Shown here in pieces: positions 12,559 through 55,470 of a stretch of 64,000 nucleotides of DNA; the first letter of the stretch is position 1; each line of letters opens with the position of its first letter. A program made the translations under genes and the position numbers. The notes under the pieces are model-generated. The model did not search any database. It was given only the letters and a program-made list of their open reading frames with translations, and was not told where the DNA came from. Origin of the DNA: Hysterangium stoloniferum (lineage: Eukaryota > Basidiomycota > Agaricomycetes > Hysterangiales > Hysterangiaceae); assembly GCA_015178975.1 (NCBI GenBank), contig WHVD01000006.1:1116001-1180000 (forward strand), written 5' to 3'.

Positions 12559-13172
12559 TGTAATGTATTAGCCTTATTTTAATACTATTTTCCGAAAAAG
12601 GAGTCCAATGCTCTATCAAGATGTGCAAATACTCAATTCACTGCAAGGTAAAATAATTTAAGTATTTGATATTAATCAGTGGCAGCCTAAATAGACTTAG
12701 AACCCCTGAAGTCAAGAGTTTACTTGAATATATGCACCCTACTTCACAAAGAGGGTTTTGAGAGCTGCTTGTGCAAGCTTGTTCTTTTTCTGTGACAACA
12801 ACTATTAAAATAAGAATAACAATTTACTGATTCTGAAGCTAGATTTAACTTCAATACTAGCTAGTTTATATATATTTTATACTATTAATCAAACAGTAAA
12901 AATATTTATAAACAGGTCAAAAGATTAGATATAGAATAAAACACTTATTTGGCTAATATATGCTTTATTTACACTAACCTACAGGGTCTACTGTGATATT
13001 AACTTAGCAGGATCTTAATGTAGTCTTAGGATCTTGCAAGGATATTCTCAGTATTTGTTTATGTGAATATGCTTTACTGATTCACAATGAATGAACAATA
13101 GAACAAGGGTTATTTGTAATGCAATAAACAGTCAAATTACTCAACTAGAGGTGACTGAAGTCTTAAACTACA
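12559..13172 (-). repeat. LTR-B fragment
   Basis: Starts TGTAATGTATTAGCC and is near-identical over about 600 bp to 56151-56755, the start of a complete LTR-B copy as written on the plus strand. It is cut off at 13172 by the 5' LTR of the chromovirus. The remaining LTR-B sequence is not found on the far side of that element. Confidence 0.7.
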
Positions 13173-13992
13173 TGTTACGACCGGACAATCCCGCCGGACT
13201 CCGGGCACTAACCCATACGCCCCCACGCGCTACAAGCACCAATCGTCTGTTTATAGGATTTCCTGCCCGGACTCCGTTATGTCAAGACTCGTTACGTTCG
13301 ACCTCATTACGACACATATCAGTCACCGGACTTCCCCCGGACTCCGTCTCTGTCTATGTCCATCTTCGTCCCACGCATCAGTCACTGGTCCCCGCTTAGA
13401 ATCCCGTCACCGCTCTAATCGAGCCCCGTTCCTGTTTTAGTCAAATGACCTGTCACGATTTAGGACTCCGCTCCCGCTCCATTTCCCGTTATGGGTTATA
13501 CTTTGTCACGATTCGGACTCCGCTCTGTTCCGTTCTGTTCCTAACACCAATTTGGTGTTTACTATTCCCGTTTCATGTTTTGTTAGTTTTCGTTTCGTTA
13601 TTACTGGATTTGGTATGTCATGCATTCCACGGTCTATATAAACTGGCAGATGTTGTACATACAATCCAGTCAGAAAATTAGCTTAGATTCCCCCCAGTAA
13701 TCTAATAATATTTTCCGCTCTAAAACCTTACTCGATTCACATCGCTTGCACTAGTCGGAGCCCATGGGCTCCAGCACATCTATCTCTCTCAACCAACTCG
13801 ACTCACGACCCACGACCCCCGACTTACGACTTACGACCCACGAACCCCACCCGGATTCCCCGGGATCCCCGTCCGTCCATTTGAAATTGGACAACACGAT
13901 CTAGTGAGGGCGCAGCCTATAAGCTGAAGCCAAGTCCTACCAGATATCCCGTGGGTTTCTCCGGAAACCCAGCCTGTGTGTGTGTCCTAACA
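13173..13992 (+). repeat. 5' LTR (LTR-A, 820 bp)
   Basis: Begins TGTTACGACCGGACAATCCC and ends TGTGTCCTAACA. The promoter region includes GGTCTATATAAACTGG near 13631. Homologous LTRs occur at 20450, 21873, 58913 and (inverted) 37187, 46499 and 62052. Confidence 0.9.
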
Positions 13993-14028: not shown

Positions 14029-15321
14029 ATGCCACCAAGAAGAAGTACACGCGCACAGTCATCAATACCTGGACCGTCGACTCTTCATTCCCCGTTAACT
14101 CTGTATACCAGGTAGACGCTTGCAAACCAGTCGGAACCCATGGAAGAAGCCCGCATCGAAGAAGTCCTGGAAAACCTGGACGAATCCGAGCGCGAGGACG
14201 ATTCCGTGGCCCCCGACAAGGGCAAAGGTGTCGAAATCCCTCCTGAAAATCCTCCGCCTGTTCAACGACCGCATTTGGGGGATCCTACTTCTGAATTTTT
14301 AGCAGGTACCATAGATAAATTCATGACGCACCTGCTCGAAGAATGAAAGAAAAAGGAACAAGAACCTCCACGGTCAAAAGTCAATGCTCCGGAACCCTTC
14401 ACGGGTTCCAACCCAAACAAACTCTCTACTTTCCTCATGCAATGTCGCTTCAACTTCCGTGATCGTGCCGCTGCATTCTCCACGGACTCCCGAAAAGTCA
14501 ACTACGCACTGTCATATTTGTCGGGATCCGCGTTGAAATGGTTTGAACTGGCTTTTAGCGGAATATCCGAGGAAGAGCCACTCTGGCTTGAAAATTGGGA
14601 GGCGTTTGTTGAGGAGCTTGAAACCAACTTCGGCCCGTATGACCCAACAGGAGAAGCCAAGAATAGTCTCACAAATCTTCGTATAAAGGATACGCAGTGC
14701 ATCACGGACTACATTGTCCAATTCAATAATCTTGCAGCTCGTTGTCAGTGGGGCGATCCCGCTCTTTGCCACCAATTCTACACCGGTCTGCCATCCCGCC
14801 TTAAAGACGAAGTCTCGAAAGGAGAAGATGGCAAGCCAAAAACCCTGTCCCGTATGCACCTCAAAGCTCAAATCGCGGACGCACATTATTGGGAACGTCG
14901 CGCAGAAGTTGCCCGCGAGACATCCGCGGACAAGGTAAACAAGTCCAAGGACAAAAACAATAACAACAATTCGTCAACCAGCAACCAGAACTCCACGCAA
15001 TCTGACAAGAAGAACGATAAAAAGTCTTCAAACAACAACAACAACAATAAGAACAATAAGGACAACAACAAGGGTCAACAGTTCGGCAAGCAAGCCGGAA
15101 AACCCGACCTCTTAGGCAAACTCGGACCCGATGGCAAATTGACTCCACAAGAAAGACAACGTTGTATGGACAACAACCTCTGTCTCTTGTGCGGGAAACC
15201 CGGTCATCGAGTCCCGGAATGTCTGCTGGCAAAAGCAAACTCTTCAAAGGGTCGAACAGCCAAGGCCTCCACGGAAACCCCGTCGAAGGACAAACCGGCT
15301 GCCGATTCGAAAAAAGAGTAA
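14029..15321 (+). pseudogene. chromovirus gag with two in-frame stops
   Basis: Structural protein of the retrotransposon particle. The frame starts at ATG 14029 (MPPRRSTRAQS) and carries TAG at 14113 and TGA at 14344. From ATG 14140 the protein reads MEEARIEEVLENLDE, and the long uninterrupted part begins at 14347. The capsid core contains ALSYLSGSALKWFE, WEAFVEELETNFGPYD and DYIVQFNNLAARCQW. An Asn/Lys/Ser-rich linker follows, then a zinc knuckle [14 protein letters not shown] (CX2CX4HX4C). It overlaps pol, which lies in the -1 frame. The stop at 14113 aligns with a TGA in the minus-strand chromovirus 2 (after LYT), so translation may normally begin downstream. The TGA at 14344 has no counterpart seen. 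Confidence 0.8.
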
Positions 15322-16430
15322 GCAACCCCGCAGACTCCACGCGGGTTAGGGGTTGCATTGCCTCTCCGCGCATTCCAGAGTTCACTCGCCTCAACGCATC
15401 CGCTCTTTCACATTCTGATTCATTTTTCGTTAAACTTATGTCTAATATGATTCCGAAATTCATTTTTTCAGCTCTCATAGATTCCGGCTTGACTCATTGT
15501 TTTTTAGATACAAAATTCATGCAAATAAATTCTTTGTCAACTTATTTGATAAATCCCGTCGCTCTCCGCCTCTTCGATGGCACAAGTAATTCGGTTGTTA
15601 CCCAAGCTTGTGATTTACCCATCAATTTCCCTTGTGGAACATCTCAATTGGTCACTTTCTATGTGACCCAGTTAGACTCAAGTTGCTCGGTAGTCCTAGG
15701 ACATAACTGGCTTACCCGCTACAATCCGTTGATTGACTGGATAGCTAACAGTATAACATTCCGGACTCCCGCGGTGACCAAGGAAACTGCGCCTGTCACG
15801 GCCTCCATGGCACCCATGGCCTTCCCTGCACTTGCAGTCTCGAGGACTCCTGTGATCCCTACGGCACCTATAGCTTCCCTGGAACCCACGGCACCTCCGT
15901 CCATTTCTCTAATTAATGCTGCAGCTTTTATTAGGGCTTCAAAAATGGATGGGTCCCAGGCGTTCACTATCAACTTAAAAATTGATGAAGCAACTGGATG
16001 TTTTTCAACCCCGGTATCTGAATCTGAGCAAGCCGCTGACCTAGAAGGCGTCCTGGAGAAATATCATGACTTCGCGGATGTTTTTAGCAAGCGAAAAGCT
16101 GACCAGCTTCCGCCTCATAGAGAATACGACTTAAAAATCGATCTTGAAGATGGCGCCCAGCCACCCCTAGGACATATTTACCCGCTTTCATCCACGGAAC
16201 TATCCGCAATCCGTGATTTCCTGGATGAACATTTGTCCATAGGTTTTATTCGACCCTCAAAGTCTCCTTTTGGAGCACCTGTTCTGTTTGTCAGAAAAAA
16301 GGATGGATCCCTTCGACTATGTGTTGATTTTAGAGGACTCAATGCTGTCACCAAAAAGGACAAATATCCACTCCCACTTATATCTGACCTGCTCGATGCT
16401 CCCAGAATGCCTGGATTTACACCAAAATAG
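15162..16430 (+). pseudogene. chromovirus pol, protease and start of RT
   Basis: Open in the -1 frame relative to gag and overlapping its last 160 bases. It contains the aspartic protease ([13 protein letters not shown], active D-S-G; then [17 protein letters not shown]) and the RT N-terminus ([34 protein letters not shown]). A run of six A's at 15310-15315 lies just before the gag stop, but it is not a textbook slippery heptamer. The frame ends early at 16430: comparison with the copy at 62 kb shows one missing base near 16403-16406 (RMPGFTPK instead of the conserved reading), which shifts the rest of RT to another frame. Confidence 0.85.
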
Positions 16431-19045
16431 ATCTCAAGCACACCTATCATTTGGTCCGGATTGCCGCGGGCGACAAATGGAAAACCACTTTTAGAACTTG
16501 CTATGGGGCCTTCGAGTGGTTGGTCATCCCTTTTGGACTCACTAATGCCCTGTCTGTTTTTCAGCGTTTTATCAACGACATTTTCTCTGACATGCTCGAT
16601 GTATGCGTCATTGTTTACTTGGACGACATTCTTATCTACTCCGAGAATCCCGCGGAACATGACAAACAAGTCCATGAAGTTCTCCGGAGGCTCAGGCAAC
16701 ATGGTTTATTCGCAAATGGTAAAAAATGTACTTTTGACATAGACTCCATGGAATACCTAGGTTTCATGATGGGACCCGATGGACTCCGCATGGACGAAAC
16801 TAAAGTGCAAGTCATCAAAGACTGGCCCGAACCCCGAAAAGTTAAAGATATACAATCCTTCCTCGGCTTTGCCAATTTTTACAGACATTTTATTCGTGGA
16901 TATTCCGACATCACGGTACCCCTTACCCGTCTTACGCATAAGGGTACTCTGTGGAACTTTAATGATAAGTGTCAAAAAGCTTTCAATCTTTTAAAAAATT
17001 CTTTTTCTACAGCTCCTATTCTGTCATATTGGAAACCGGATTTCCCGCTCATTGTTGAAACGGATGCCTCCGACTATGCACTTGGAGCCATTCTCTCTAT
17101 CCAGGACTCCGACGGAGAAGTTCACCCCGTGGCTTTTCTGTCCCGGACTTTTACCGGAGCAGAGCTCAACTACGATGTTCATGATAAAGAACTTCTGGCA
17201 ATCTTTTCAGCTTTCAAAGTGTGGCGACACTATTTGGAAGGTTCAGGAGCTCCTATTGACGTTGTAACAGATCACAAAAACCTGGAATACTTTTCTACCA
17301 CAAAACTCTTGACCCGCCGGCAGGCCCGCTGGTCTGAATATCTCTCCGCCTTCAACATGATTATCCGCTTTCGACCCGGCCGTCTTGGTGGCAAACCCGA
17401 TGCTTTAACTAGACGATGGGACGTCTATCCTAAAGAGGGGAGCAACGACTATGCAACGGTAAATCCGCACAACCTGAAATCTATTTTCACAAATCAACAA
17501 CTTACCGCATCAGTCCGCGCAACTTTCCTCGTCAATCCCATTGTCCATGGAATTATCATTATGAATATCGAGAAGTTACATCAAGATATTCTATCGGCAA
17601 TTCCGCTAGACCCAGTTACTAAAGCTCATCTGGACAATCCCGTGGACCCCGATCAACCTCGGTGGTCTCTTGATCAACATGGTTTCATTAGACTTGACGA
17701 TAGGATCTATGTACCGGACTCCGACGGACTCCGCCTCAGGATCCTTCAATACAAACATGATCATCCACTCTCAGGATATTTCGGGTACAACAAAACTCTA
17801 TCATTAATAAGAAGAGAATATACTTGGCCCGGACTCCGTGGATTTGTTAAGCACTATTGTAAATCTTGCACTACTTGTCCCCGCTCGAAATCTCAGCGAC
17901 ACAAGCCATACGGCCTTTTGAAACAACTCCCGGTACCGGAACACCCGTGGAATTCTATATCTATGGATTTCATTGAACACCTACCGGATTCCGAAGGCTT
18001 TTCTGCTATTCTAGTCGTTGTTGACAGATTCTCAAAACAAGGTATATTTATCCCTACTTATGATACAATTACGTCCATGCAGTTAGCAGAACTTTTCATT
18101 ATCCACATATTTTCCAAGCACGGAGTTCCATCCCACATGACTTCCGATAGAGGATCAGAGTTCGTGTCTCACTTCTTTAGATCCCTCGGAAAATCCTTGG
18201 ACATGACATTACATTTCACGTCCGGACATCACCCGGAAGGTGACGGACAAACCGAACGCGTCAACCAGACATTGGAACAATACCTCCGCGTATATTGCAA
18301 CTACCAACAGGACAATTGGAAAACCTTGTTACCACTTGCAGAGTTTGCTTACAACAATGCACCCTCGGCCACTACTGGCGTTTCCCCGTTCTTTGCAAAT
18401 AAAGGATATAATCCAAATATTACAGTACATCCAGAATGAAATCTCGCCTCTGTTCGTGCTCAAGAGTTCACCACGGACCTCCACGAGCTCCACGAGGAAC
18501 TCCGGACTGCAAAATTGTCCGCCCAAGAGCAATACCAACATTCAGCGGACAAACACCGGATCCCGCCACCCAACTTCAAGATTGGCGACCGTGTTTATGT
18601 CAAAGCTCAATTCTTCCAGACTACCCGTCCATCAAAGAAGTTTGCTGAAAAATATTTAGGTCCGTTTGAAATTATCGCACAAGTAGGTTCAGTTTCTTGG
18701 ACTCTACGGCTTCCGGATAGCATGCGTGCGGTACACCCAGTATTTCATGTTTCTATGCTTGAACCTTGTACTGCTAACACTATCCCGGATCACATGCAAT
18801 CTCCGCCTCCTCCTGTCATCATTGACGGAGAACCCGAGTTTGAAATCTCACAGATTTTAGATTCAAAAATAGACAAGCGTCGACGCACTTGTAAACTGCT
18901 TTACTTGGTCAAGTGGACGGGTTACGAGGGCACCGATGAAGAAACCTCATGGATTTTGGCCACGGAACTCGGTAATGCCATGGAAATCGTTACTGACTTT
19001 CATACAGCTTACCCGCTCAAACCTGGACCATTATCTTCTCTCTGA
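16406..19045 (+). pseudogene. chromovirus pol, RT-RNase H-integrase-chromodomain
   Basis: Continues pol after the 1-base deletion. RT shows YGAFEWLVIPFGLTNA and the catalytic VYLDDILIYS. RNase H follows ([26 protein letters not shown]). The integrase has the zinc-binding H-H-C-C region (HDHPLSGYFG ... CKSCTTC) and a DDE core (ISMDFIEHLPDSEG, TSDRGSEF, DGQTERVNQTLEQYL). A TGA at 18437 replaces a conserved Trp codon, and the same frame then continues to 19045. The last part holds GDRVYVKAQFFQ, the GPFEI module and a chromodomain (YLVKWTGYEGTDEETSWI), which in this branch steers integration to marked chromatin. Not functional as it stands. Confidence 0.9.
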
Positions 19046-19253: not shown

Positions 19254-20239
19254 TTATTCATCTACTTCTATGGGGCTGTCCTTTTTCCCCGCCACCTCAG
19301 CTACTTCCTCAGGAAGCTCCGTGACCTCCGCGTCAACCCCGTCCTCATCTGATCCGGCATCCTCGGAACTCCCGACTTGCGGCTCCTCATAAACATAGCT
19401 GCCATACTCCGCCAGGAACTTCCAAAATTCCTCGTGGAGTCCGCACAGCTCCTTCGCCACCACTATGTGGACCTTGTTGCTCTTCCGGAGCAACTCATTT
19501 TGGGCCTCGATGCCCTCGGCGATCCGTCCAAGGACCTTGTCCAACCCGGACAACCCGTCCGTTCCACTTATGTCTCGCATCCCGGACCCCGTGGCCTGCT
19601 CGTGCACAAGCCAGCACCTCGCCTTGAGGTGCGCACATTGGTAACATCCCGGCCCCCGGCCGGCCTTTCGGTTGCATTCCGTGTTCCGGTCGTTGCAACC
19701 GGAACACCGCGGCTCGTTCCGCATCGGAAGACGGACTGGCACCGCCTTCCTTGCCTTCTGTTGATATGGTCAGTTTCTGCGGGTATTCCACGGACATGAG
19801 GCCTACCTTTTGGGGGCTCTCTGGCTCCCCCTCGGACTCGGACTCCACCTCTGTCGCTTTGCGCTGAAAATCACAAGTCAGTAAAGTTTGACAAGTGAAA
19901 TTTGGGACTTACTTTTCCCGCAACAATGGCGGCCCTCTCCACGGCCAACCGGGCTTTCTCTGCAGCCACCCGGGTGTTCTCCACGGCCACTCGCGCAGCC
20001 TCCTCCGCCTCACGTTCCCTCTCCTTTGCGGCCTCTTCCTCCACGGCCAACGCTTCCTGGTACTCTCTGTCCAGGGCCTCCTCAGCCTCCCTCGCCTCTC
20101 TCTCTGCTGCTTCACGAAGCTAGCACTGCTCTTCTCGCCGCGCCAACAATTGGGCCGCGCTCCAAGGCGCCCGATACGGAGTGCCCGTGGAGGGCCCTGC
20201 TATAGGCATTGGCTTGCGTGGTGTTGGTTTTGGTCCCAT
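19254..20239 (-). pseudogene. antisense spliced gene, coiled coil plus Zn2Cys6-like
   Basis: Lies between pol and the 3' LTR, antisense to the element. Exons on the minus strand: 20239-19913, 19863-19807 (57 nt), 19757-19254; both introns are GT-AG (49 nt each). The protein starts MGPKPTPRKPMPIAGPS, then has a long charged, probably coiled-coil region (EAEREAREAEEALDREY, VAVENTRVAAEKARLAVERA). Exon 3 holds six cysteines spaced CX2CX6CX9CX2CX6C (CSGCNDRNTEC ... CYQCAHLKARC), the spacing of fungal Zn(II)2Cys6 clusters. The tail is acidic (SSEDAGSDEDG) and ends KKDSPIEVDE. One TAG, in exon 1 after EEQC, breaks it. The second copy at 54520 keeps both introns and all six cysteines. Function unknown; DNA binding or regulation of the element is inference only. 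Confidence 0.75.
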
Positions 20240-20291
20240 AGTGACGAAGAAGGGGGTAATGAAGAAGAAGAAATTTCTATTTTTTCAAATT

Positions 20292-20299
20292 TTTATATA
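20292..20299 (-). promoter_or_regulatory. TATA box of the antisense gene
   Basis: TATATAAA on the minus strand, about 55 bp upstream of the antisense ATG at 20239 and about 150 bp inside the 3' LTR. The same box and context (GAGCCTATATAAAAATTTG) precede the second copy at 54458-54465. Confidence 0.65.
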
Positions 20300-20449: not shown

Positions 20450-21313
20450 TGTTACGACCGGACAATCCCGCTGGACTCCGGGCACTAACCCGTATGCCCC
20501 CACGTGCTACAAGCACCAATCGTCTGTTTATAGGATTTCCCGCCCGGACTCCGTTATGTCAAGACTCATTATGTTCGACCTCATTACGACACATATCAGT
20601 CACTGGACTTCCCCCGGACTCCGTCTCTGTCTATGTCCATCTTTGTCCCACGCATTAGTCACCGGTCCCCGCTTAGAATCCCGTCACCGCTCTAATCGAG
20701 CCCCATTCCCATTTTAGTCAAATGACCTGTCACGATTTAGGACTCCGCTCCTGCTCCATTTCCCGTTATGGGTTATGCTTTGTCACGATTCAGACTCCGC
20801 TCTGTTCTGTTCTGTTCTGTTCTGTTCTGTTCTGTTCTGTTCTGTTCTGTTCTGTTCTGTTCTGTTTCCCATTTCATGTTTTGTTAGTTTCATTTTGCCA
20901 TTACTGGATTTGGTATATCATTCACTCCATGGTCTATATAAACTGGCAGATGTTGTACATACAATCCAGTCAGAAAATTAGCTTAGATTCCCCCCAGTAA
21001 TCTAATAACATTTTCCGCTCTAAAACCTTACTTGATTCACATCGCTCACACTAGTCGGAGCCCATGGGCTCTGGCGCATCTATCTCTCTCAACTATCTCG
21101 ACTTACAACCCACGACCTCCGACTTACGACCCACGACCCCCGACTTACGACCTACGACCTATGAACCCCACCCGGACTCCCCGGGATCCCCGTCCATCCG
21201 TTTGAAATTGGACAACATGATCTAGCGAGGGCGCAGCCTATAAGCTGAAGCCAAGTCCTACCAGATATCCCGCAGGTTTCTCCGGAAACCCGGCCTGTGT
21301 GTGTATCCTAACA
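20450..21313 (+). repeat. 3' LTR (LTR-A, 864 bp) with TCTGT microsatellite
   Basis: Matches the 5' LTR from TGTTACGACCGG to GTATCCTAACA. It differs by many CpG-to-TpG/CpA changes and by a TCTGT/CTGTT pentanucleotide expansion at about 20800-20866 that replaces the unique sequence around 13525-13560 of the 5' copy. Confidence 0.9.
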
Positions 21314-21867
21314 ATGGACAATATTGCAGCAAGCGCATAATCCGAGGCATCAGTTTCCACAATGAGTTGAACATTGGGCTTCCAGTGTGACAAAATAGGG
21401 GCAGATGTAAATGCACTTTTCAATTCTCAGAATGCCGTACAGCATTCTTTGGAGAAATTCCATGGGGCATCTTTATGAGTAAGATGAGTGAGCGGAATGG
21501 TAATTTTTGAGTAGTTGTGAATGAAACGACGATAAAAATTGGTGAAGCCTAAAAAGAACTGAATGTCCTTAACCTTTCGGGGTTCCAGCCAATCTTGAAT
21601 GACTTGAATTTTAGAGTCATCCATGCAGAGACTGTCGGGTCCCATCATGAAACCTAAATATTCAACTGTGTCGACATCAAACAAATATTTTTTACCATTT
21701 GCAAAAACACCATGTTTTCAGAGTCTTCAGAGAACTTCACGGACATGTTTGTCGTGAAGTGTAGGGTCTTTGGAAAATATGAGAATATTGTCTAAGTACA
21801 CAATGACATAGACATTGAGGAGGTCGGAAAAGACATCATTGATAAAACATTGAAAGACCAATGGAGT
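21314..21867 (-). pseudogene. pol fragment, RT end and RNase H start
   Basis: Minus-strand reading gives TVEYLGFMMGPDSLCMDD, VKDIQFFLGFTNFYRRFIHN and, after a stop, SAFTSAPILSHWKP and IVETDASDYALAAILS. Colinear with 16740-17100 of chromovirus 1. Broken by stops and by the element boundary at 21314. Confidence 0.8.
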
Positions 21868-23944: not shown

Positions 23945-24208
23945 TGTTATGTATTTTTAAAGGTTTTCTCTATTTTTCGCAATTTCCCCAAATGAGATTC
24001 TTAAAAAAGGCTCTAAAAATGTACTTATATCACTATGGTAAAATTGTACAGTATTCCTTTGATTTATCTCGAAATTATGCAAATTATTTTGTATTTTTAT
24101 CTAAACGTCTGAGTAGACTACGAAATTTCTACTTTTATTCTTTTTTAACTATATATCTTCAAACTGGTGCTTATTACACAATGCGCGGGAATATTCGTCA
24201 CAATGAGT

Positions 24209-24754
24209 GACCATGGTCACAATAAGTGACCATGGTCACAACAAGTGACCATGGTCACAACAAGTGACCGTTGTCACAACAAGTGACCGTTGTCACAACA
24301 AGTGACCGTTGTCACAACAAGTGACCGTTGTCACAACAAGTGACCGTTGTCACAACAAGTGACCGTTGTCACAACAAGTGACCGTTGTCACAACAAGTGA
24401 CCGTTGTCACAACAAGTGACCGTTGTCACAACAAGTGACCGTTGTCACAACAAGTGACCGTTGTCACAACAAGTGACCGTTGTCACAACAAGTGATCGTT
24501 GTCACAACAAGTGATCGTTGTCACAACAAGTGATCGTTGTCACAACAAGTGATCGTTGTCACAACAAGTGATCGTTGTCACAACAAGTGATCGTTGTCAC
24601 AACAAGTGATCGTTGTCACAACAAGTGATCGTTGTCACAACAAGTGATCGTTGTCACAACAAGTGATCGTTGTCACAACAAGTGATCGTTGTCACAACAA
24701 GTGATCGTTGTCACAACAAGTGATCGTTGTCACAACAAGTGACTGTTGTCACAA
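24209..24754. repeat. 19-bp tandem array, 28 units
   Basis: Unit GACCGTTGTCACAACAAGT. Spacing is exactly 19 bp from 24209 to 24741. There are three variant blocks: 3 units with GACCATGG, 12 with GACCGTT, 13 with GATCGTT, then a partial GACTGTT unit. The core GTTGTCACAAC is nearly palindromic. A looser GTGACAGTCGCAAGAGC-type array follows to about 24900. Confidence 0.95.
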
Positions 24755-25149
24755 GAGCGCGCGACAGTCGTCACAAGAGTCGCAAGAGTGCGTGACAGTC
24801 GCAAGAGCACGTGACAGTCGCAAGAGCGCGTGACAGTCACAAGAGCGTGCAACAGTCACAAAAGGTGCGCGACAGTCACAAGGCACGACAGGTGTCACAC
24901 GTGCACTAGCGCGTGAATATTATGTCATATATTATGTCATCATATATGCTACAATTGAGAATGGCAGAAATGTCTAAAACATTCCAAGTAAAATAGCTAA
25001 AATAGGATAGAAATAAAGTTCAATATGTCTCTAAATGTCTCAGATCTCAGTGTATATAAGGAGCTCTGCTCCAGCCATGAAATATAACTCATTTTATCAA
25101 CCCATTTACACCACATCTGTGTGTCACTGCAGCAAGCAGCCTACTCCAC

Positions 25150-38808: not shown

Positions 38809-40507
38809 TTGACAAAGTTCTTGCCATCATACATACCTCGGTTACCATCGACACCAATGCCACTGCTCACACACTCTGAAATGAGACAGAGACACCAGCT
38901 TGGACTACCTCCCCTTCTCATAAACCCCTTCACAAACGATACACTCAGCTCATCTGCACCCCCGACACCTCTACCAACAGAGCCTGACCCTTCAGGAACT
39001 GACACAGACACAGACACTGAATATCCTGTAGGACAAATATACCTCCCACACTACAAGCCACTGCCAACACACCAAGGCAAGAAGTGAAAGATGCCACAAA
39101 CCGAAAGAACAGAGCCCATAGCAGAAGTAAAGGTCAGCAAGCTAAAAGAATGCCTGATGCTTACAGCCGGACGCTACACACCCCTTGTACACCAAACTGG
39201 TCAACCACTTGTTGCTGATACATGAAGTTCGGAGAAAGGAAACCCAAGGAGATCATTAGCTATGTAGCAGATGTGATGATGGAGCTGCAACTCATGGCCT
39301 GGTACCAGGGTGATCAAACATGAATTGATGCCCTCACCCTGGAGAAATACCTTGAAGAACTCACATCCATCACTCTCGAAAAAAACTGGGCACACCTTAT
39401 TCGGGAAAGGATCCTCACCACCCATCAAGGTGGACAAAAATTCATAGACTGGAAAATCGAGATGGAAAATCTCAATGCAATCCTCACCACTTCGGCCAAA
39501 TCTTTCACACTCTCAGTGGCTGCCCTGAAGATACAACTTGAGGCCAATTTAGACAAAGCACTGAAACATAACCTCCTTGTTGAGCCTATTTCCTTGACGG
39601 AACTTGCAGCATGGGCTAGCGAAGTAAAGGAGCATGACAAACATGTTCGTGAGCAACAGGAAATTGTCCAAGAACAGATCCTTGCCAACAATGCTGCCCA
39701 CGCTCTCCGTCGCAATGAAAGGAAAGACCTAGCCTCACAACTTTCAGACCCACCCTCTAGTTCTAATTCCACCAACAAGACCCCTAGTGTAAAACTCCCC
39801 AGGCTGACTGACAAAGAGAGGAAGCTTCTTCTAGACCACAAGGGATGCACATGGTGCCATGTCTTCTATGTGGGACATCGATCTGACACTTGTCCAATGA
39901 AAGCTAACAATTCATGGCCTGAGGTTACAACTTACAAAACACTTACAGTATCAATAGCCCAAGCTGCTGCACCCCACACTACTGCTGGCCTTGCCATAGC
40001 CAAGATTGAAGAATATCCTGATGAGGACACTGATACGTGTGTTGTTCCTACACCATATTCCCCCTTCACGGTCCCACATCTCTACACACCAGTGGAGCTT
40101 ACAGGGCCTCTCATTTCCAACTTTCCCCTCTCAATAAGAGCACTTCTTGACATAGGCTGCCCCTCTACAGTGATTAGTGAGGCCCTAGTGTTACAACTAG
40201 GACTGAAGAGGAAGATAATCTGTCGTCGCTGTCAGAAACACCATGTCTATCTGGATGATATCATTATATGGTCAAAGACCATAGAAGAACATGAGAAAAA
40301 TGTGGCCATGGTATTACAGGCACTCCGGATGGCCAAACTGTACTGCAATGCAGATAAATCCATCCTTTTTGCAATAGAAATATCCTTCCTCGGGCACCAA
40401 ATTTCAGGTGCAGGGATCTGCCCAGACGCATGAAAAACTGAGCACATTATCAATTGGCCTCAGCCCACAACTGCCACCAATGTTCGAGGATTTCTGGGAC
40501 TCACCAG
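38809..40507 (+). pseudogene. gypsy element F, gag-protease fused to RT by deletion
   Basis: Gag-like sequence (38809-39087, 39462 on: DGLVTTSAKSFTLSVAAL-like helical stretch starting MENLNAILTTSAKSFTLS). A CX2C-type knuckle region appears at about 39847-39900 (CTWCHVFYVGHRSDTCPMK, CX2CX6HX4C). Protease RALLDIGCPSTVISEAL lies near 40137. At about 40215 the frame jumps straight to the RT palm (HVYLDDIIIWSKTIEEHEKN) and LGHQISGAGI, so roughly half of protease-RT is deleted. Frames are also broken at 40433. The sequence continues to VRGFLGLT at 40507, where a CACTA transposon interrupts it, and resumes at 46447. Confidence 0.75.
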
Positions 40508-41915
40508 CACTGGAGGCACCCCAAGATTTTTGGAGTTGGAAAACCTTCAGAAAATCTTGTTATTTGGCCAAATTTTCTAAGTGTTTTGTGAATTGAAAAA
40601 CTCTTTGAAAATTCTGAGTTTTAGTAGGTTTTTCTGAGGCCAAAAATTGGATCTGAAAATTCTAAAAATTTGCATCAGGAAATTATGAGGAAATATTGTT
40701 GGAAATAGCCTATTCTTTATGGATTTTCTGAATAAGAAAACTTTTAGAAAACCCTGTATTTTGTTAGGATTTTTCCACCTAACAAAATCCTATGAAAACT
40801 GTAATAATGTGCCTAGAGAAATCAATTGAAAACCACATATTTCTACTTAATTTTGCCTCTGAGGGAATTCAGTGAAAACTATGGTTCTCTGCCTGAAAAA
40901 ATCTTGAGTCAAGACAAAGTTTTTTTAATGTTTTGTCAAGGGGAAAACCATGATGAAGTTTACAATTTAATTATACATAAAATCATTGAATAATTAGATA
41001 TTTCAACAAAATTTTCCTTGGTCATAAACACTATGGAAATTCAAAAAATCTGTTTGTGAAATCATGAAGAAATTGATGATTTTCCATGAGTTTCTTAGAG
41101 GTTTTTCAAGGTGAGAAACCCTGAACCGATGTTTTGCAATTCAGCACGATTTGCAAATATTCGAAAGGATACAGTGCGATTCAGTGCGATTCACAAATAT
41201 TTGAAAAGATACAGTGTGATTCATTACAATTCGCAAGTGTTCAGGAATATCCAATGCGATTTGCAAGTTTTCAGGAGGCTAGAGTGCGACTCTTTTAGAC
41301 TTTTTGCGACTATTCTAGACTCTTTGCGACTCTTTTGGACTCTTTGCGACTCTTTTGGACTCTTTGCGACTCTTTTGGACTCTTTGCGACTCTTTTGGAC
41401 TCTTTGCGACTCTTTTGGACTCTTTGCGACTCTTTTGGACTCTTTGCGACTCTTTTGGACTCTTTGCGACTCTTTTGGACTCTTTGCGACTCTTTTGGAC
41501 TCTTTGCGACTCTTTTGGACTCTTTGCGACTCTTTTGGACTCTTTGCGACTCTTTTGGACTCTTTGCGACTCTTTTGGACTCTTTGCGACTCTTTTGGAC
41601 TCTTTGCGACTCTTTTGGACTCTTTGCGACTCTTTTGGACTCTTTGCGACTCTTTTGGACTCTTTGCGACTCTTTTGGACTCTTTGCGACTCTTTTGGAC
41701 TCTTTGCGACTCTTTTGGACTCTTTGCGACTCTTTTGGACTCATTACGACTCTTATAGACTCTTTGCAACTGTTATAGACTCTTTGTGACTCATGTAGAC
41801 TCTTCACGACTTTTTGTGACTCTTCACGACTCTTTTAGACTCTTTGCAACTTTTTTAGACTCTTTGCGACTTTTTGTGTCTTTGAAAAGTTGCAAAGTCA
41901 CACAAAGTCACAAAG
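40508..41915 (+). repeat. left long TIR of the CACTA element
   Basis: Pairs with 45080-46443 over its length (for example GAAACCCTGAACCGATGTTT at 41116 and its inverse at about 45816). Contains the 20-bp tandem array. Confidence 0.9.
41318..41737 (+). repeat. 20-bp satellite, 21 perfect copies
   Basis: Unit GACTCTTTGCGACTCTTTTG, perfectly conserved over 21 units, then degenerate to about 41880. All reading frames stay open because the unit length and 420-bp span lack stops; the resulting ORFs are artefacts. Confidence 0.97.
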
Positions 41916-45079: not shown

Positions 45080-46443
45080 GTGACACTTTGTGACTTTGTG
45101 CGACTTTGTGTGACTTTGCAACTTTTCAAAGACACAAAAAGTCGCAAAGAGTCTAAAAAAGTCGCAAAGAGTCTAAAAGAGTCGTGAAGAGTCACAAAAA
45201 GTCGCAAAGAGTCTACATGAGTCACAAAGAGTCTATAACAGTTGCAAAGAGTCTATAACAGTTGTAACGAGTCTATAAGAGTCACAAAGAGTCTAAAAGA
45301 GTTGCAAAGAGTCCAAAAGAGTTGCAAAGAGTCCAAAAGAGTCACAAAGAGTCCAAAAGAGTCACAAAGAGTCCAAAAGAGTCACAAAGAGTCCAAAAGA
45401 GTTGCAAAGAGTCCAAAAGAGTTGCAAAGAGTCCAAAAGAGTTGCAAAAAGTCCAAAAGAGTTGCAAACAGTCCAAAAGAATCGCAAACAGTCCAAAAGA
45501 GTCGCAAACAGTCTATCAGAGTTGCAAACAGTCTATCAGAGTTGCAAACAGTCTATCAGAGTTGCAAACAATCTATCAGAGTTGCAAACAGTCGCAAACA
45601 ATCACAAAGAGTCTAGAATAGTCGCAAAAAGTCTAGAATAGTTGCAAAAAGTCTAAAAGAGTCGCACTCTAGCCTCCTGAAAACTTGCAAATCGCATTGG
45701 ATATTCCTGAACACTTGCGAATTGTAATGAATCACACTGTATCTTTTCAAATATTTGTGAATCGCACTGAATCGCACTGTATCCTTTCGAATATTTGCAA
45801 ATCGTGCTGAATTGCAAAACATCGGTTCAGGGTTTCTCACCTTGAAAAACCTCTAAGAAACTCATGGAAAATCATCAATTTCTTCATGATTTCACAAACA
45901 GATTTTTTGAATTTCCATAGTGTTTATGACCAAGGAAAATTTTGTTGAAATATCTAATTATTCAATGATTTTATGTATAATTAAATTGTAAACTTCATCA
46001 TGGTTTTCCCCTTGACAAAACATTAAAAAAACTTTGTCTTGACTCAAGATTTTTTCAGGCAGAGAACCATAGTTTTCACTGAATTCCCTCAGAGGCAAAA
46101 TTAAGTAGAAATATGTGGTTTTCAATTGATTTCTCTAGGCACATTATTACAGTTTTCATAGGATTTTGTTAGGTGGAAAAATCCTAACAAAATACAGGGT
46201 TTTCTAAAAGTTTTCTTATTCAGAAAATCCATAAAGAATAGGCTATTTCCAACAATATTTCCTCATAATTTCCTGATGCAAATTTTTAGAATTTTCAGAT
46301 CCAATTTTTGGCCTCAGAAAAACCTACTAAAACTCAGAATTTTCAAAGAGTTTTTCAATTCACAAAACACTTAGAAAACGTGGCCAAATAACAAGATTTT
46401 CTGAAGGTTTTCCAACTCCAAAAATCTTGGGATGCCTCCAGTG
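45080..46443 (-). repeat. right long TIR of the CACTA element
   Basis: Inverse of 40508-41915. Its satellite portion (45280-45640) is degenerate: the CpG of each unit (GTCGCAAA) is mostly changed to GTTGC or GTCAC, while the left array is intact. Confidence 0.9.
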
Positions 46444-46446
46444 CAG

Positions 46447-46498
46447 ATACATTTCAGCATTCCTCCCTGCATTAGCAGAACATACCAGTGTGCTCACC
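46447..46498 (+). pseudogene. gypsy element F, pol continuation after the CACTA insertion
   Basis: Reads RYISAFLPALAEHTSVLT in frame with 40507, then is cut by an LTR at 46499. Confidence 0.75.
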
Positions 46499-54465: not shown

Positions 54466-54519
54466 AATTTGAAAAAATGAAATTTCTTCTTCTCTATTGC
54501 CCCCAATCTTTGACAAAAA

Positions 54520-55470
54520 TGGGTCCAAAGCCAACACCGTGAAGGCCAATGCCGACCGCCAGGCCCTCCATGGGCAACCAATACTGGGCACCTCTCACCA
54601 CTGCCCAAATTTTGGCACAGCGGGAGGAACAATGTCGACAGTGAGAGGAGGTGGAAAAAGAAGCCAGGGAGGTTGAGGAGGCATTGGATAGAGAATACAA
54701 GGTGGCATTAGCTGTGGAGAAAGCGGCTGAGGAGAAAAGGAAGAAGGATGAGGAGGAGGCTGCGCAGGTTGCCATGGAGAAAGCCCGGGTGGCTGTGGAA
54801 AGGGCCGCAGTTGCCGCGGGCAAAGTAAGTCCCATAGATACGACTTCTCATTTTAACTGATTTGGTATTTTCAGTGTAAGGTGACAGAGGTTGAATTGGA
54901 GTCCGAGGGGGAGCCGGAGAGCCCCCAAAAGGTAAGTCTCGGGTCCATGGGAAAATCTGTGGAACTAACCAAAATCAACAGAAGACAAGGAAGGTGGCAC
55001 CAGTCTGCCTACCAACATGGAATGACCTGTGGTGTTCCAGTTGTAATGACCGGAACACTGAATGCAATTGAAAGCCTGGGCAGGGACCGGGCTGCTACCA
55101 GTGCACGCATCTCAAAGTGAGGTGCTCACTCATTCATGAGCAGCCCACAGGGTCTGTGGTTGGGTCAGACGGGATCTCCAGTTTGGATGGGGTTTTAGGA
55201 CAGATCACTGAGGGCATAGAGGCCCAGAATGAGTTGCTCCAGAAGAGCAACAAGGTCCAAATTGTGGTGGTGAATGAACTCTGTGGGCTCCACTTGGAAT
55301 ACTTCAAATTCCTGGTGGAGTTCGGCAGCTATGTCTATGAGGAGCTGCAGATCGGGAGTTCCAAGGATGCTGGTTCAGATGAGGATGGGGTGCCCGTGGA
55401 GATAGTGGAGCTCCCTGAGGAGATGGCTGAGGTGGAGAAAAAGGATAGCCCCATAAATGTAGATGAATAG
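54520..55470 (+). pseudogene. second copy of the antisense Zn2Cys6-like gene
   Basis: Homologue of 20239-19254. Exons 54520-54824, 54875-54931 (57 nt, same length as in copy 1), 54982-55470; both GT-AG introns conserved in position. Starts MGPKPTP, with TGA codons after MGPKPTP, after EEQCRQ and in the zinc region (CN, then TGA). The coiled-coil part (KEAREVEEALDREYKVALAV, KARVAVERAAVAAGK), the six cysteines (CSSCNDRNTEC ... CYQCTHLKVRC) and the acidic tail (GSDEDGVPVEIVELPEE, DSPINVDE) are all preserved. Its stops differ from the one in copy 1, so each copy died independently. Confidence 0.75.

Follow-up and report, generated by a model that had tools for sequence, protein, structure and literature searches.

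An antisense, intron-bearing gene with a zinc-cluster-like cysteine motif evolves under purifying selection in a chromovirus family of Hysterangium stoloniferum

The window analyzed here is a stretch of 64,000 nucleotides from the genome of Hysterangium stoloniferum (contig WHVD01000006.1, positions 1,116,001 to 1,180,000), an ectomycorrhizal fungus of the Hysterangiales, Phallomycetidae (PMC7550596). It contains a long terminal repeat (LTR) retrotransposon on the plus strand. The 5' LTR (13173..13992) was delimited by its TG...CA ends and by alignment of the LTR pair, which also places the 3' LTR at 20450..21313. The two LTRs are 92.1% identical over 819 aligned bases, and 50 of their 65 differences are transitions. 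Between them, open reading frames (ORFs) spanning 14437..19045, broken into several pieces in this copy, encode gag, protease, RT-RNase H, integrase and a chromodomain. Pfam domains were found in the order Retrotrans_gag, RVP_2, RVT_1, RT_RNaseH, Integrase_H2C2, rve, SH3_Tf2-1 and Chromo, the last (PF00385) scoring 31.2 bits versus a cut-off of 25.1. With the gag-PR-RT-RH-INT order and a C-terminal chromodomain, the element is a chromovirus (Ty3/gypsy). No target-site duplication was seen at its flanks (CTACA at 13168-13172, ATGGA at 21314-21318). The right flank is RT sequence from a related minus-strand element, and no continuation of that related element was seen in the window on the left side of the 5' LTR. 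Elsewhere, the window holds a tandem array with a 19-nt unit (24102-24842) and two 1.3 kb arms (40486-41821 and 45130-46465), which are 93% complementary, are separated by 3.3 kb and consist in part of short tandem units.

Past the pol/chromodomain ORF, which ends at 19045, and before the 3' LTR, the strand complementary to gag-pol carries a gene whose position and orientation, as given in the initial annotation, were confirmed by the ORFs, the Pfam domains and the LTR pair. More specifically, exon 1 (19913..20239, minus strand, 327 nt) starts with an ATG at 20239 and encodes an Ala/Glu/Arg-rich stretch. It is followed by intron 1 (19864..19912, 49 nt, GTAAGT...CTGAC...TTTTCAG), by exon 2 (19807..19863, 57 nt), which encodes 19 acidic residues ending in SPQK, and by intron 2 (19758..19806, 49 nt, GTAGGC...CTGAC...CAACAG). 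Exon 3 (19254..19757, 504 nt), which is open in the window copy, encodes a basic patch, a CX2CX6CX9CX2CX6C motif, a conserved segment and an acidic tail before the stop codon. A TATA-like box, TATATAAAA, is located at 20291..20299 on the same strand. The exons join over both introns with the frame unchanged. Thus the three minus-strand exons and two GT-AG introns described initially were confirmed, but the joined frame is interrupted in the window copy, where codon 40 is an in-frame TAG (20122-20120). This copy is old and dead, and a whole protein cannot be made from these coordinates. A second copy in the window (54519..55470, plus strand; exons of 306, 57 and 489 nt), identified by tblastn and alignment, retains both introns, the TATA and the six cysteines and has its own stops at codons 8, 42 and 151. 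Its carrier is an interrupted minus-strand relative of the element, with pol pieces on the minus strand.

The 111 Mb genome (554 contigs) was searched with exon 3, resulting in 1260 candidates, of which the best 150 were scored. The set of 91 copies analyzed below consists of 70 of the best 71, 20 lower-ranked copies of the 150 and the second window copy; the window copy itself is included. Both introns are bounded by GT-AG in 90/91 copies, the remaining copy having GT-AG at intron 1 and GC-AG at intron 2. Intron 1 of 85/91 copies and intron 2 of all 91 contain a CTRAY branch-point motif, compared with an expectation of 0.09 from shuffled sequence. Based on these GT-AG and branch-point signals, both introns are classified as spliceosomal and are predicted to be spliced. 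Host gene models, compared by eye, give this weak backing: one (P0003) crosses both junctions and another (P0002) the first. The spliced frame is open in 56/91 copies, a share that is biased upward since most copies were selected by score. These open copies encode 286-309 residues and yield 44 distinct products, one of which is common to 13 copies. The exact six-cysteine spacing is found in 89/91 copies. The initial annotation had named the loss of frame and cysteines in other elements of the family as an outcome that would count against the gene; instead, both are retained. Among 70 long loci, which were chosen by gene score, the pol end was found beside the gene in all 70 and an LTR in 66. 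Four copies are identical across the antisense gene, which speaks for recent movement of the element.

Genome-wide pattern counts, allowing up to two mismatches and with a backwards-read control of 0 for each pattern, gave 473 matches for a 22-base exon 3 pattern and 467 for the junction of exon 2 with intron 2. At the same tolerance, a fused exon 2/exon 3 junction was matched nowhere in the genome. A pol-end pattern matched 628 times versus these 473 and 467, the counts not being paired place by place. It had been argued that introns survive retrotransposition only if they are antisense to the genomic RNA, and the 467 intron-bearing junctions against 0 fused ones bear this out: the introns persist because the genomic RNA represents the opposite strand. 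The count is a clean illustration that transposition does not use the antisense mRNA as its template. Copies with as little as 78% identity in exon 3 retain the cysteines and the introns. We also analyzed 20 older copies (L091-L110), found with the H. stoloniferum protein P0001. Intron 1 has GT/GC-AG borders in 16/20 of these, intron 2 in 17/20, and the exact six-cysteine spacing is present in 16/20. They carry many changes from Arg to Trp, Gln, Cys or His as well as TGA stops, as expected from C-to-T decay at CpG. The antisense, intron-bearing accessory gene is a solid feature of this element family.

Upstream of the gene, TATAWAW was found in 87/91 copies, in 84 of those at 55-58 bp from the ATG, and in 14 of the 19 older copies having upstream sequence. 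In the window copy the box noted initially is confirmed, its first base lying 60 bp before the ATG. The ATG context CACTATGG is shared by at least 59/91 copies. Conservation of the TATA as a sign of promoter selection was considered and ruled out: mean column identity is 0.894 in the TATA block versus 0.94-0.97 in its flanks. Since the block is less conserved than its surroundings, the TATA box is consistent with being the promoter of the gene, and no more.

The predicted product of about 294 residues consists of a charged stretch, a basic patch, the six-cysteine cluster, a conserved segment and an acidic tail. A coiled coil had been proposed for exon 1; the Ala/Glu/Arg-rich stretch is confirmed, and it is probably helical. 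In all 56 open copies SPQK is followed by KARK, RARK or KART, so that KKARK spans the exon 2/exon 3 junction. The cysteine motif and the acidic tail noted initially are both there, the motif within the open exon 3, and in one open copy 17 of 45 tail residues are acidic and 2 are basic. All six cysteines are found in 76 of 77 distinct projected products, and a cysteine at position 233 is Ser in 48 of the 77.

Zn(II)2Cys6 proteins have a spacing range of CX2CX6CX5-12CX2CX6-8C, with the DNA-contact half first. The spacing here falls within that range and did not arise once when the exon 3 product was shuffled 200000 times. The Pfam profile Zn_clus gave a weak, sub-threshold match in 46/51 exon 3 products (best E 0.051); scores were 8.0-13.9 bits among the matches listed, below the curated cut-off of 21 bits. 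In one comparison, 1/10 members of the antisense gene set had no match to the profile at all. In the matches listed, the weak match aligns residues 14-31 of exon 3, the first half of the cluster, with profile positions 16-32, the second half, which departs from the canonical order. The second half of the cluster gave a weak result against the canonical first half in one hhalign comparison (probability 5%). Judging from these sequence comparisons, the motif looks like a zinc cluster by spacing; membership in PF00172 is supported neither by score nor by the order of its halves. A search of solved structures with the product returned nothing significant.

Relatives of the product were sought in three protein searches, and only H. 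stoloniferum proteins (P0001-P0003) were found. The search with the whole product scored the best 8000 candidates by shared words; later searches were performed on exon 3 because exon 1 is low in complexity. The best genome match of P0001 has 99% identity over residues 65-201. A single scan of viral contigs was also negative, and no unlinked host copy or host source gene was seen among the 70 long loci (best 150 of the 1260 candidates scored). The earlier proposal of a captured host zinc-cluster protein is not upheld by these results: the relatives found were all from H. stoloniferum, pol lies beside the gene in every long locus, and the scores stay below the Zn_clus cut-off. A diverged host source gene may still lie beyond the 150 candidates scored. 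The host genome does contain genes with several Zn_clus matches close together, grouped on contigs such as C56, C115 and C308 (one stretch, C56:38300-41300, was read). Such multi-copy tandem Zn_clus genes were considered as a source and set aside, as they are different proteins (one hhalign comparison, probability 5%).

Next, selection on the reading frame was estimated as pairwise dN/dS (Nei-Gojobori) among the 91 copies, skipping stop codons and gapped codons. In the gene frame, dN/dS was 0.22-0.30 in the divergence bins, which hold 3685 of the 4095 pairs; for the 410 pairs beyond the last bin, mean dS was 0.72 and mean dN 0.13. A value near 1 had been named in the initial annotation as evidence against the gene, and the observed ratios are well below it. 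All parts of the protein contribute: for the 2023 pairs with dS >0.2, dN/dS ranged from 0.14 to 0.27 by part, with 0.14 in exon 2, 0.15 in the cysteine core and 0.27 in exon 1. In codons lacking CpG in either copy, dN/dS was 0.26 in exon 1 and 0.11 in exon 3, and 0.04-0.18 by bin for the whole gene. A comparison with pol was made on 69 copies and at most 400 pairs per bin. In the same bins, the antisense gene had dN/dS of 0.22-0.29 and the pol C-terminus 0.15-0.23; the antisense gene is conserved about as well as other proteins of the element.

The signal is specific to one frame. Using 600 sampled pairs, dN/dS in the gene frame was 0.27 for exon 1 and 0.20 for exon 3, versus 1.19-1.57 in the other two frames of the gene strand. 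On the opposite strand, the frame that shares wobble positions with the gene had dN/dS of 0.38 (exon 1) and 0.27 (exon 3), and the remaining frames had 1.24-1.72. Pairs of copies share history, and we therefore also chose 45 disjoint pairs (dS >=0.02), using 90/91 copies. These gave dN/dS of 0.35 (bootstrap 0.32-0.39) versus 1.10 and 0.91 for the two alternative frames of the gene strand.

Length changes and stop codons were counted in the same copies. Relative to the window copy, 19/26 length changes in exon 1 were multiples of three versus 7/49 in intron 1 (Fisher's exact test, p 6e-7, a value that is too small as the copies are related). None of the three length changes in exon 2 was a multiple of three, and those 3/91 copies were scored as broken. 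In exon 3, 5/34 length changes were multiples of three, and 24/34 were copies one base shorter that differ only at the stop codon; these 24 were not scored as frameshifts because all of them have an in-frame stop one codon earlier. Stop-free frames were counted with fixed codon boundaries, leaving out the last five codons of exon 3. For exon 3, the gene frame was stop-free in 71/91 copies and the wobble-sharing sense frame in 0/91; for exon 1, the corresponding counts were 74/91 and 78/91. One opposite frame is often open in exon 3 (55/91) and has dN/dS of 1.39. Taken together, frame-specific dN/dS, stop counts and length changes demonstrate purifying selection on a protein encoded by the antisense strand, in all its parts. 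It is the protein, not just the RNA, that selection keeps.

Candidate target sites of the product were found in the LTR. CGG triplets are common recognition sequences of Zn(II)2Cys6 proteins. GACTCCG occurs five times in the first part of the 3' LTR (20474, 20547, 20617, 20741 and 20793), compared with a shuffle mean of 0.11; in 4/300 shuffles, at least one 7-mer was present five times or more. Two of the five sites resemble a local duplication, and GACTCCG is absent from 2/7 LTR stretches counted in the window. The motif GGACTCCG/CGG-N3-CCG has four to five occurrences within the initial 350 bases of the LTR (window 20450-20800). Among 65 related LTRs, which represent one lineage and are not independent, CGG-N3-CCG occurs at least twice in the first 600 bases of 64 and at least three times in 62. 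As a lead only, the repeated LTR motif may be a target of the antisense product.

We propose, with a probability of roughly 0.6, that the element carries an antisense spliced accessory gene with its own promoter whose product acts in the nucleus, contacting DNA or a partner and adjusting the element's transcription. More specifically, the accessory gene, on the strand opposite gag-pol and between pol and the 3' LTR, would be driven by its own TATA-type promoter. Removal of two short spliceosomal introns from the transcript would then lead to a protein of about 294 residues. This protein would be nuclear, would bind zinc through its cysteines and would contact DNA or a partner protein. It may modulate how the element is transcribed, with the repeated CGGACTCCG at the start of the LTR as possible sites of action, in a manner reminiscent of HBZ in HTLV-1. 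We infer that the most likely job of the product is to regulate, in the nucleus, the expression of the element that encodes it. By analogy only, the basic run, the cysteine cluster, the acidic tail and the CGG-N3-CCG repeats of the LTR appear to fit a DNA-binding regulator better than they fit the rival roles. A fuller version can be formulated, in which the product would be a counterpart of HBZ: a self-encoded, antisense, spliced zinc-cluster regulator with a new type of cluster (two PxCX2CX6C-like halves), reading CGG-N3-CCG palindromes in its own LTR and providing copy-number feedback, while the introns keep its mRNA from being taken for the genome. We regard this complete scheme as unlikely.

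The strongest competing explanation is that the protein is selected for something other than transcription, for example nuclear import, integration or the countering of a host silencing factor, with the cysteine cluster serving as a protein- or RNA-binding zinc module. Selection on all parts of a protein whose scores stay below the Zn_clus cut-off would suit such a role, and import of the pre-integration complex into the nucleus has been proposed for genes of this kind (PMC7264820). The same combination of basic run, cysteine cluster, acidic tail and LTR CGG-N3-CCG that suggests, by analogy, a DNA-binding regulator weighs on the other side. We consider a non-transcriptional role a tentative possibility.

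Much less probable is that the antisense RNA matters rather than the protein, by overlapping the 3' end of the element transcript and feeding or blocking RNA silencing, as has been discussed for antisense transcription in other LTR elements (PMC7264820). An RNA role requires no frame, cysteines or introns, whereas the disjoint pairs separate the gene frame (0.35) from its two neighbors (1.10 and 0.91) and the length changes of exon 1 mostly keep the frame. The codon pattern largely refutes an RNA-only role. We give even less credence to a host gene trapped recently and carried as a passive passenger with no benefit to the element. Introns and an own promoter are what would be expected of a genomic gene caught in reverse; however, cysteines and introns persist even where exon 3 identity has dropped to 78%, and the pol end accompanies the gene in 70/70 long loci (chosen by gene score, best 150 of 1260 scored). 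Passive carriage is disfavored by dN/dS, which is far below 1. Least credible of all, an ORF on the sense strand sharing wobble positions could produce the frame signal, in line with its low ratios (0.38 and 0.27) and with an exon 1 slightly more often stop-free than in the gene frame, but its exon 3 is open in none of the copies, the opposite frame that is often open there has dN/dS of 1.39, dN/dS is lower in the antisense frame for both exons, and it is the minus strand that carries the conserved GT-AG and branch signals.

The reading that we favor, an antisense gene whose product may regulate its own element, can be compared with several known systems. The cysteine spacing, within the family range, and the weak sub-threshold match recall fungal Zn(II)2Cys6 factors (PF00172). 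Here, however, scores are below the cut-off, the order of the halves is mismatched and the cluster is in the middle of the protein. Zn(II)2Cys6 factors also have a lysine-rich stretch after the second cysteine, which is absent here. Among fungal elements, Zhao et al. are said to have described, in 2011, Boty-like chromoviruses of Botrytis cinerea with an antisense gene, brtn; that host is an ascomycete, whereas H. stoloniferum is a basidiomycete. The gag-pol product of a Boty-like element with brtn has a CHROMO domain (PMC4227169; see also PMC8365987). The likeness, compared by description, is that of a fungal chromodomain element with an antisense gene (PMC4227169).

In plants, maize Grande (gene23), rice RIRE2 and Silene Retand carry an antisense gene (aORF-3R) between pol and the 3' LTR in most copies, and gene23 of Grande is driven by a promoter of its own and its product is nuclear (PMC7264820). 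Retand carries TRP28, which is predicted to bind DNA (PMC11963269). The gene described here occupies the same position as in these plant elements; in contrast to it, introns or a zinc cluster are absent from the descriptions of the plant genes in these two sources (PMC7264820, PMC11963269), and the words 'intron' and 'zinc' do not occur in the main text of the latter. HTLV-1 provides a further analogy, with no homology claimed: HBZ is expressed from the provirus as an antisense mRNA, spliced in its main form (PMC6237760), and is a regulator that antagonizes Tax (PMC5797633). Like the present gene, for which splicing is predicted, HBZ is antisense, spliced and borne by a retroelement; unlike it, HBZ is a bZIP protein of an animal retrovirus, and its antisense promoter lies inside the 3' LTR (PMC7264820), whereas the TATA found here is outside the LTR.

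Antisense genes of LTR elements are thus known, and their function in LTR retrotransposons has been called unknown (PMC7264820). In our search of the open-access literature, no title pointed to a fungal LTR element with an antisense zinc-cluster gene that contains introns. Apparently new, within the literature searched, are the two conserved introns (467 to 0), the zinc-cluster spacing and frame-specific selection demonstrated across numerous copies in a fungal element. This family combines several hundred genomic matches, strong frame-specific selection in every exon, conserved introns, a candidate metal- or DNA-binding motif and candidate sites in the LTR, and makes the question of self-regulation directly testable.
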